Origin: Leifsonia shinshuensis
GTDB taxonomy: Bacteria; Actinomycetota; Actinomycetes; Actinomycetales; Microbacteriaceae
Assembly (NCBI RefSeq): GCF_014217625.1
Contig: NZ_CP043641.1
Coordinates: 1,488,001-1,552,000 of the forward strand
Direction: 5' to 3'
Length of the DNA stretch: 64,000 nucleotides
Shown: piece by piece, positions 38,334 through 40,362 of the stretch
How the letters are laid out: the number at the start of each line of letters is the position of its first letter
How positions within the stretch are numbered: position 1 is the stretch's first letter
Notes under the pieces: model-generated
Databases searched by the model: none
Told to the model about the DNA's origin: nothing
What the model saw: only the letters and a program-made list of their open reading frames with translations
Program-made: the position numbers and the translations under genes

Positions 38334-38510
38334 TCTCCACGGGCGTCGCCAGGCTGCGCCCCACCCGCTCCCCCAGACGCCGTGCCTCGCGGAGCGAGGC
38401 CCGTCGCGCGGGGGCCCCGCGGGCCGGGACCCCGATAGTCAGCAGCGATTTCTGACGTCGGGCTGACGAGATTTGAACCTGCGACCCCTTGACCCCCGGT
38501 GAAGTGCGCT
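38334..38510. repeat. Left direct repeat of the tRNA-Pro-associated insert (attL-like)
   Basis: About 177 bp matching 40105-40341 on the same strand. The block 38344-38382 is identical over 39 nt to 40115-40153, and 38456-38510 matches 40287-40341 with four mismatches in 55. It includes a decayed tRNA-Pro 3' part. The right copy differs mainly by holding an extra 60-odd-bp hairpin. Together the copies bracket a low-GC Fic-type gene. The stretch 38182-38582 holds no protein gene. Confidence 0.8.
38459..38510 (-). pseudogene. Truncated tRNA-Pro 3' fragment
   Basis: Antisense to the numbering, this matches the 3' two thirds of the tRNA-Pro at 40289-40362: part of the D-side, the anticodon arm, T arm (GGTTCAAATC) and acceptor 3' strand (CAGCCCG). 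The 5' acceptor strand is missing. The anticodon loop reads CCGGGGG, with C replacing the invariant U33 and a mismatch in the stem, so it is not functional. It looks like the duplicated 3' end left by site-specific integration. Confidence 0.8.
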
Positions 38511-38582
38511 TGATCAAGGAAGGGGCTTGTGCTAGCCGGAGCGAGCTGCCCCCGTCGCGTTGGAGCCCGCTATCAGCTTTGC

Positions 38583-39782
38583 TTACACCCGCGCGAGCCT
38601 CTTGAGTAACTGGGAATATTCTAGGATAAAGAAGTCGGGGCCCTTGGCGTCCCCATAGAAAACTTCAGCGTCGAATCCATTTTCGGGATCAAGTTGTAAC
38701 TCACGTCTCATCCGCTTGATTATGCTCTTCGGAACTTCGCGTCCGTCGCTTGTATTTCTGTAGCGAGAACTAAGCTCCAGAGTCTTACGGCCGAGCAGGG
38801 TGCGACGTCCTGAAACGCGGCGCTTGACAAGCATCCACTCGCCGCGATCCGGGAGCACTTCGCAGCCCAATTCGCGCAGCCTGTGCGAGAGTTCGCGCCA
38901 CGTTACCGCGCGATCCTCGCGTCGAATCTGCCTCGTGCGCTTGTGAATCCAATTGGCTATTGCTAAAACCTCACGATCGGCGATCCGGTCATATTCCACG
39001 TCCGGGTCAAGGAGCCCATGCGCGGCCACCTGGACCATGAACCGGTAGAGGTCTGCCTCATCGGATTGAATTACTAGATTGTGCCGGTCGAGAAACACGA
39101 GCATCGCTACGAGAGCCGTTCGCTTATTGCCGTTGTGAAAAGGGTGGTTCTGAACGATCGAGTGAAGCAAAGCCGCGGCCGATGACTCGACGGTTGTGTA
39201 TTTCATCTGGTCGCCGAAAGACGCAGCCGGTCGGCCAGCCGCGCTCTCTAGCAGGGCTCGGCTTTTGACTCCCGGCGGTGAAATGGGATCGTCGGTTGAT
39301 TGGAAGTCCACTGTCAAGGCCACATGCACTTGTTCAATTTCAGCTGCACTCAAATAGTTGCAACTTCTCGTATTTCCAGGGACCTCCCACACCAACGGTG
39401 GCGCCTGGGGTTTTGGCTCGCTGGTCACCTCTTGATCGCGCTTGCGAAATTCCCGAGAAGGATGGTGCTCCAGCCGCCTAATCGCACCTTTCGGGAGGGT
39501 GCTTGCTGCGGGGTGAACCCGCACTCCTAACTCAGCGAGGTATTCGACAAGCTCCGCGCGTGACACGGAGAGCTCATCGAGCCAGTAGCTGATCCGCTTC
39601 AACCTGGATCCCTCGATGCCTGTTGCGCGTTCCGCCGCGGCGACGTCGCTGGGATGGATTCGCGAGTTTGCATCCATCGGGTATTCGATCTTTTCGCCCC
39701 AGAGGGCTAGGAGTACCTGTTCGACGTCAAGACCCGACGCAGAACTCAACGTACCTACCGTCCAACTTCGACGCTTTGCCAT
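38583..39782 (-). CDS. Fic/Doc-fold protein with two N-terminal IF2N-like helical modules
   Basis: 399-aa protein, probably a toxin or protein-modifying enzyme. The Fic/Doc core spans about 144-285, from LSAAEIEQVHVALTVDF to the motif HPFHNGNKRTALVAMLVFL (213-231). The motif differs from the usual HPFx[D/E]GN: Asn217 stands where Fic and Doc proteins have the Mg-binding acid. Residues about 6-55 (WTVGTLSSASGLDVEQVLLAL) and 63-106 (LDELSVSRAELVEYLAELGV) look like tandem IF2 N-terminal-type helical modules. The segment 293-322 (TWRELSHRLRELGCEVLPDR) recalls the HicA double-stranded-RNA-binding fold. ATG 39782 follows GAGGAA. Base composition is much less GC-rich than the flanks. No antitoxin gene is evident. 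Confidence 0.78.
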   Translation of the reverse strand: MAKRRSWTVGTLSSASGLDVEQVLLALWGEKIEYPMDANSRIHPSDVAAAERATGIEGSRLKRISYWLDELSVSRAELVEYLAELGVRVHPAASTLPKGAIRRLEHHPSREFRKRDQEVTSEPKPQAPPLVWEVPGNTRSCNYLSAAEIEQVHVALTVDFQSTDDPISPPGVKSRALLESAAGRPAASFGDQMKYTTVESSAAALLHSIVQNHPFHNGNKRTALVAMLVFLDRHNLVIQSDEADLYRFMVQVAAHGLLDPDVEYDRIADREVLAIANWIHKRTRQIRREDRAVTWRELSHRLRELGCEVLPDRGEWMLVKRRVSGRRTLLGRKTLELSSRYRNTSDGREVPKSIIKRMRRELQLDPENGFDAEVFYGDAKGPDFFILEYSQLLKRLARV

Positions 39783-40103
39783 GACTATGCGTTCCTCGTC
39801 GATATTGGCAGACAAGCTCTCATTGATTGTGCGAGGGCTACGCCACTCCGGAATGCTGCAGTCGCGTTCGCGGCCGCGGGACGAAGGCACGCCTCCATCG
39901 CGTTCTCATGGGCTCCACCTTGCAAAGCCACACTCATTTGTCCTCGTTCGACCATCTTTTCGTAGTCGGCCTTCCCCACGTCATTTCGTTCACTCTGCTC
40001 TCTCCTTGCCAGACTTAGACAGGCTAGGGCTATGACCGAGGTGTTACGGATTCCCAGAAGGAGGGGTGTCATTGTCCGTTCAAGCAGAAGAGTTCCGTCC
40101 GCC

Positions 40104-40341
40104 CTCTCCACGCCCGTCGCCAGGCTGCGCCCCACCCGCTCCCCCAGACGCCGGCCCTCGCTGCGCTCGGGTCGTCGCCCGGGGCCCCTCGCGGGCGGGG
40201 ACCCCATTAGTCAGTGCGAGTTCTGAAAAAGCCGGTGGGGCACGTGGTCGCTTTGCGACCTTCGTGCCCCACCGGCTTTTTCAGAACGTCGGGCTGACAG
40301 GATTTGAACCTGCGACCCCTTGACCCCCAGTCAAGTGCGCT
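40104..40341. repeat. Right direct repeat of the tRNA-Pro-associated insert (attR-like)
   Basis: Second copy of the left repeat, with the 39-nt identical block at 40115-40153 and the tRNA end at 40287-40341. A long hairpin (40221-40286) is present here but not in the left copy. The gap from 39783 to 40103 holds no convincing gene; a short frame reading NEMTWGRPTTKRWSNEDK behind AAGGAGAG near 39950-40010 (minus strand) may be a transposase-like remnant. Confidence 0.75.
40221..40286 (-). terminator. tRNA-Pro terminator: 24-bp perfect hairpin
   Basis: Arms 40221-40244 and 40263-40286 are perfectly complementary (24 bp); the 18-nt loop holds a second 6-bp stem GGTCGC/GCGACC. On the tRNA strand the structure ends CCGGCTTTTTC, so it is a good intrinsic terminator 3 nt after the tRNA. 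It is symmetric and could stop transcription from both sides. Confidence 0.85.
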
Positions 40342-40362
40342 ACCAAGCTGCGCCACAGCCCG
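40289..40362 (-). tRNA. tRNA-Pro (anticodon GGG)
   Basis: Complete 74-nt cloverleaf including discriminator A. Acceptor CGGGCTG pairs with CAGCCCG; D arm GCGCAGCTTGGTAGCGC; anticodon arm CTTGA-CTGGGGG-TCAAG gives anticodon GGG; T arm has GGTTCAAATCC. The 3' CCA is not encoded. It is the intact end of the insert, with a duplicated 3' fragment at 38459-38510. Confidence 0.95.

Follow-up and report, generated by a model that had tools for sequence, protein, structure and literature searches.

A probable small island with a Fic-type gene and no recognized integrase at a tRNA-Pro gene of Leifsonia shinshuensis that receives differing insertions across the genus

Integrative elements of the pSAM2 type in actinomycetes use a tRNA-Pro gene as their target, and their insertion is accompanied by a duplicate that begins within the tRNA and reaches its 3' end. 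In the passages that define them, cis-mobilizable elements (CIMEs) lack integration and transfer genes, keep both of their attachment (att) sites, attL and attR, and move in cis together with a neighbouring integrative element (PMC5704250). Defence hotspots in Escherichia coli (PMC10121019) and Pseudomonas aeruginosa (PMC10250203) are single chromosomal loci at which the antiviral systems vary from strain to strain. Here we analyze a stretch of 64,000 nucleotides of L. shinshuensis (contig NZ_CP043641.1, positions 1,488,001 to 1,552,000; hereafter the window), in which a segment of low guanine-plus-cytosine (GC) content with a Fic/Doc-type gene lies between direct repeats beside a tRNA-Pro gene. 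We consider it moderately probable that this segment is a small integrated island without an integrase of its own, of the CIME kind, located at a busy tRNA-Pro port.

According to ARAGORN, the window contains a single tRNA gene, an intact tRNA-Pro with anticodon GGG on the minus strand (40288-40362; Rfam tRNA model, 64 bits), which would be the target of integration. Read in the direction of this tRNA, on the same strand, it is directly followed by a 25-bp perfect inverted repeat that resembles a terminator hairpin (T; 40287-40220, with arms at 40220-40244 and 40263-40287), by a unit named R that corresponds to a long imperfect hairpin and is the tRNA-proximal copy of the tRNA-Pro trailer (40207-40105), by about 1.6 kb of low-GC DNA (the insert, 38511-40104), by a duplicate of the 3' part of the tRNA (38510-38455), which would be the far-side att core, and by a second, distal R (38436-38334). 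The larger direct repeats are thus 38334-38436 with 40105-40207 (103 nt, 81% identical) and 38455-38510 with 40286-40341 (56 nt, 93%). An initial annotation of this DNA had reported 39 identical nucleotides at 38344-38382 and 40115-40153, as well as a tRNA-Pro 3' fragment matching the intact gene at 51 of 55 positions. Both counts proved exact: the 39-nt repeat cannot be extended, while exact direct repeats reached at most 16 nt when 38301-40400 was simulated 200 times with a first-order Markov model, and the distal tRNA copy has three mismatches in a 43-nt core. Of T, which the initial annotation had not mentioned, only a trace is left at the distal side, most of the hairpin between the distal R and the tRNA part having disappeared.

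The same annotation had placed about 1.6 kb with one low-GC gene between the repeats, and our analyses agree with it. The GC content of the insert is 57.2%, against 0.706 for the window, and it is below that of all 313 sliding stretches of equal length. The sole recognizable gene in the insert is the Fic gene, whose longest frame spans 38583-39890 on the minus strand. No integrase, transposase or antitoxin gene was recognized in 38511-40104; the other frames of at least 35 aa were not recognized either, and the three longest of them gave no Pfam match. When Rfam models were run over 38000-40700, the tRNA alone scored above the gathering threshold, and R and T matched no known RNA. A gene for a chitinase-like protein is present in the flank near the island.

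We then examined the site in 28 genomes of the genus, which were searched whole and include the source genome (G000). The 43-nt 3' end of the tRNA, with at most three mismatches, is present in more than one copy in eight of them (G000, G002, G008, G011, G023, G024, G025 and G027) and once in the other 20, and the reversed pattern used as control did not occur at all in the 28 genomes. The extra copies of G002 and G024 are located on other contigs. The DNA 3' of the intact tRNA, read by eye in all 28 genomes, consists of the T hairpin in 13, the end of an inverted-repeat element in four and other sequences in 11; the sequence of T changes between genomes. Only in G000 and G023 is T accompanied by a second tRNA 3' copy, and therefore the tRNA itself appears free of an insertion in 11 of the 28 genomes. 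Of these, seven carry a single full or near-full R, R is shortened or changed in G026, G005 and G017, and in G019 an element end comes right after R. Both occupied and unoccupied states of the tRNA site are hence found among relatives.

The occupied sites differ in what they hold. G023 has the layout of the window, with a flank that is 95% identical and a distal copy containing 59 nt of the tRNA, and a different insert of 1.4 kb (GC 0.57) with a DUF7945 gene; distal copies in congeners match 39-59 nt of the tRNA. DNA between the tRNA copies at the GGG locus is of low GC content in G023 (0.570), G027 (0.623) and G025 (0.601) too, and its content differs. Integrase genes with a PF00589 domain lie about 1.2 kb or less from this tRNA in at least G027, G008, G024 and G002, a fragment is found in G018, and a C-terminal PF00589 fragment stands beside this tRNA in G025. 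Relatives of the Fic gene are present at the tRNA-Pro(GGG) site in no other genome of the 28. Several copies or pieces of the tRNA end and of R were detected within the islands of G011, G023 and G024. The single-copy sites and the other cargo between the same repeats are what the initial annotation had proposed to look for in relatives, and the pattern that it had named as contrary, with both copies and the same Fic gene in every relative, was not seen among the 28 genomes. Its proposal of a small island whose integrase was lost, or of a satellite mobilized in trans, is supported as far as the island is concerned; no integrase was recognized in the insert, and loss and mobilization in trans are both possible. 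Two further observations concern this tRNA. The elements in G002 (L054, 18260-18416) and G024 (L045, 1556-1711) seem to bring a complete variant tRNA-Pro, next to which the original tRNA persists as its 5' part, and in G008 another Fic-family gene (Fic_N, SoFic-like; L040, 2864-3982) is located just past the distal tRNA copy of an 18 kb element.

The attachment duplicate had initially been described as unusually long, about 180 bp. This description is not supported, as the 103-nt part of the duplicate belongs to the tRNA-Pro genes of Leifsonia as a conserved trailer, which unoccupied sites and a second tRNA-Pro gene carry too. A pattern made from the conserved half of R gave 18 matches in 13 of the 28 genomes, and all 18, by position, are at tRNA-Pro(GGG) islands or beside the second tRNA-Pro, by which R was ruled out as a dispersed repeat or as an att site specific to an element. 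Judged from these sequences, R would be the hairpin trailer of the tRNA-Pro genes and not the att site of the element alone, and the putative att core is plausibly the 55-nt tRNA 3' part only. Twenty-one full R copies fit one long imperfect hairpin, with 89.7% of the cells paired against 37-53% when the pairing was slid; six pairs are changed on both sides, and such changes account for 17 cells against 8.9 in shuffles. These copies were chosen by hand, partial ones being omitted, and the structure was drawn from the same sequences, which favours its fit; RNAalifold run unaided on R gave weaker support, with two pairs changed on both sides. Leifsonia tRNA-Pro genes thus seem to end in two successive predicted hairpins, the first with changing paired arms and the second, R, conserved with compensatory changes. 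This double hairpin was seen at 40105-40287 of the window and in the 3' flanks of tRNA-Pro genes of congeners (L064-L069). At the second tRNA-Pro of G027 (L069, 9193-9448), hairpin and R are tandemly duplicated, with no cargo and no tRNA part.

Because relatives carry other insertions at this tRNA, several of them with antiviral defence genes, the island looks like a swappable cassette at a docking site used throughout the genus. PADLOC was applied to 20 proteins encoded in islands at this tRNA; as they had been selected by eye for a likely role in defence, the outcome is not a rate, and for eight of them no match reached an E value of 1e-5. In G021 (L. aquatica DSM 20146), a cyclase (1e-116), a HORMA protein (2e-67), TRIP13 (2e-113) and a SAVED-TIR protein (6e-59) are encoded between the tRNA and R, and GajA (1e-242) and GajB (4e-212) just past R. 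The former genes constitute an operon of the cyclic oligonucleotide-based antiphage signalling system (CBASS), which we take to be type III-like, within an inverted-repeat cassette at tRNA-Pro (L047, 1997-11222), adjoined by the Gabija pair (11606-15504). SduA (1e-131) and a kinase were matched in G013, HamB in G019 (2e-54) and G004 (8e-55), a TIR-like PDC-S35 protein in G009 (2e-15) and, further out, a SIR2-like protein in G023 (2e-8). The frame preceding HamB has no PADLOC match in G019 or G004 and no Pfam match in G019, and "Hachiman-like" is therefore based on HamB. Nothing was recognized as defence in the other islands at this tRNA.

Part of these cassettes belongs to an apparently undescribed transposon family, recognized by a trio of genes for a Tn5-like DDE transposase (about 640 aa, without a match in Pfam) and two tyrosine-recombinase-like proteins, most of which are filed as hypothetical proteins. 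Its elements are inserted at tRNA 3' ends with a target repeat of 6-7 bp, and they have a hairpin of their own in the end on the tRNA side. They were found in G006 (L061, 1733-5906), in G229 (Leifsonia sp. Root4, placed in another genus by the genome set; L205), in G033 (L206), in G276 (L207) and in other genera (L209-L215), and they are stacked in tandem in G006, G033 and G276; the far ends were not found in G229, G267 and G140. Decayed trio elements with defence cargo (CBASS, Shedu and HamB-like genes) are present at tRNA-Pro(GGG) in G021, G013 and G004. No account of the tRNA-Pro locus or of the trio element was found in the literature searched. For specialists, the surprise would be this element in relatives, which has the tRNA 3' end itself as its target. 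Outside the window, the source genome contains a 24.4 kb element of this family at tRNA-Ser(GCT) (contig C1, about 2620.9-2645.3 kb; L216, L229), with matching ends and the target repeat GCCGAC; among its cargo genes is one that looks like SIR2, named by eye, near the far end.

The product of the window gene matches the Fic family in Pfam (52.9 bits, cut-off 24) and TIGR01550 (53.1, cut-off 38.65), and alignment with relatives indicates ATG 39782 as the likely start, giving a protein of 399 aa. It would consist of three domains, an N-terminal IF2N-like, a central Doc-like Fic and a C-terminal HicA-like domain. The protein has the Doc/Fic fold, with the motif HPFHNGNKR, which in the family takes the form HxF[HY]NGNKR. 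The motif [ST]xxxE[GN], by which Fic proteins are inhibited from within the protein, is absent in the window protein and in 18 of 19 relatives. Upstream of nine Fic genes, 26 frames of at least 30 aa on the same strand within 500 nt showed no match between genomes at an E value of 1e-3. A 140-aa frame (39785-40207, minus strand) ends right at the likely Fic start; Pfam has no match for it, and no counterpart precedes the Fic relatives. The distribution of the family is patchy: full-length relatives are present in three of the 28 Leifsonia genomes, G000 itself, G011 (43% identical) and G012 (40%), the latter two at other places, and G025 and G003 have the Fic core only (E about 2e-13). In the family sample, the gene occurs in 12 of 398 genomes and 11 of 85 genera, and 643 of 7998 candidates scored were relatives at E 1e-10 or better. 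Among phage and plasmid records, 50 and 328, respectively, match parts of the protein, all at less than 60% identity; none covers 80% of it, and a phage or plasmid origin of the gene was discarded. The relatives in G381 and G267 (L098 and L103), which belong to different genera, both adjoin an rpsO-like gene, named by eye, perhaps another favoured site.

Our explanation of the island would be the following. Circular or transferred DNA with a copy of the tRNA-Pro 3' end may have recombined with the chromosomal tRNA-Pro(GGG), an entry for which we infer a tyrosine integrase that acted in trans or has since been lost. The incoming DNA would have come to lie next to a tRNA gene that stayed intact, and the former 3' end, together with its trailer, would have been displaced to the far side and have decayed there. 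The one recognizable gene that is left most probably encodes a stand-alone effector of the Doc-like kind, which would act on the translation apparatus, having its Fic core between two possible RNA-binding ends, and may be kept as a defence or abortive-infection gene, like the cassettes at the same site in relatives. The island may also still be able to move.

Several results weigh against this explanation. The two R copies differ at 19% of positions and, aligned with some flank, the distal R has its nearest relative in the unit of G001 (79%) and not in the proximal copy (74%), so that they do not derive from one recent duplication. An empty site with an identical left flank was not found among the relatives, with which the DNA left of 38334 aligns in pieces only, and hence the join is deduced from the tRNA side. 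Integrase-bearing relatives have another terminator at the tRNA, whereas the window and G023 have the native-type hairpin and R, an arrangement that does not result when an element that brings its own terminator simply integrates; the mobile form would itself carry the tRNA end together with T and R, or else native DNA recombined in later. As for the gene, no tRNA is present within about 10 kb on either side of eight Fic relatives in other genomes (19-20 kb stretches), and in G229 a tRNA-Pro lies 13 kb from the relative. The matches of both end domains are weak, and PADLOC matches are to PDC models only, which denote candidate systems (best PDC-S23, E 6.6e-13 over the Fic part). The usual Fic motif has an acidic residue, and asparagine replaces it in all 20 aligned proteins, the window protein and 19 relatives, which makes catalysis uncertain.

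The terminator difference would be accounted for if the segment were the remnant of a larger, integrase-bearing element, of which the integrase end was replaced by native tRNA-hairpin-R DNA from another strain, so that one cargo gene was left between the imported trailer and the old distal att and the segment no longer moves as a unit. The abrupt end of the proximal R of G023 and the multiple tRNA-end and R copies in the islands of G011, G023 and G024 point in the same direction, but no trace of an integrase was recognized in the insert, and two separate events of this kind would be required to give the odd layout in both strains, whose cargo differs; we therefore judge this course of events rather unlikely. 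That the Fic gene was brought by the trio transposon family, whose ends were later lost or changed, appears improbable. Besides the decayed elements at tRNA-Pro(GGG), it draws on the relative in G229, which is 50% identical and is separated by about 9 kb from an open transposase trio beside a tRNA-Pro(CGG), with type I restriction-looking genes, named by eye, in between; yet the far end of that element was not found, a native-type hairpin follows the tRNA of the window, and the insert is bounded by tRNA 3' copies with no inverted-repeat pair listed at its ends. The end motif of the Leifsonia tRNA-Pro copies, allowing up to three mismatches, occurs 0 times in G000, though diverged ends such as those of its tRNA-Ser element would escape this pattern. 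An old local duplication was rejected as the principal explanation because strains differ in their cargo and the nearest relative is not the same for the two R copies. These facts also oppose its variant without any integrated element, in which a tandem duplication of the tRNA 3' end and trailer received the gene by ordinary recombination; the cargo-free tandem of hairpin and R in G027 is in its favour, but it contains no tRNA part, and the DNA between the copies in G023, G027 and G025 is of low GC content and differs in content, which leaves this variant very improbable.

With the integrated island as the preferred reading, the odd pair of repeats becomes a defined port for the exchange of foreign cassettes in Leifsonia, whose members are actinobacteria of soil and plants. 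The finding also suggests that a cassette of this sort may consist of as little as one gene, with no recognized mobility gene. We tentatively propose, as a bolder and less probable picture, that the port is shared by two unrelated machines that swap defence cassettes of one gene or one operon, namely tyrosine-integrase elements and the trio transposon, which would read tRNA 3' ends, bring a replacement terminator and stack. The Fic gene of the window would then be such a cassette, encoding a new stand-alone, translation-directed Fic class (IF2N-like, Fic HNGNKR, HicA-like) with altered chemistry.

As far as sequence comparison can tell, the Fic family is distinct from Doc in its motif and domain set. 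Unlike Doc of the P1 Phd-Doc pair, the window protein has about 400 residues and three domains, with asparagine in place of the acidic motif residue, and no antitoxin gene is recognized next to it. The island has in common with the pSAM2 type the tRNA-Pro target and a duplicate that extends to the tRNA 3' end, but no integrase, replication or transfer gene was recognized in it. The Leifsonia port resembles the defence hotspots of E. coli and P. aeruginosa in being one locus with antiviral systems that vary by strain, and differs in that its insertions are at a tRNA 3' end used by two unrelated mobilizing systems. In contrast to CIMEs as defined, the island is down to one recognizable gene, its flanking duplicate includes a native-type trailer, and its mobility in cis is putative. 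It is like a CIME in having no recognized integration or transfer genes, in having att-like ends on both sides, where the tRNA 3' copies are the candidates for attL and attR (3 of 43 core positions mismatched in the distal one) and recombination between them is putative, and in occupying a tRNA 3' end that integrase-bearing elements use as well.
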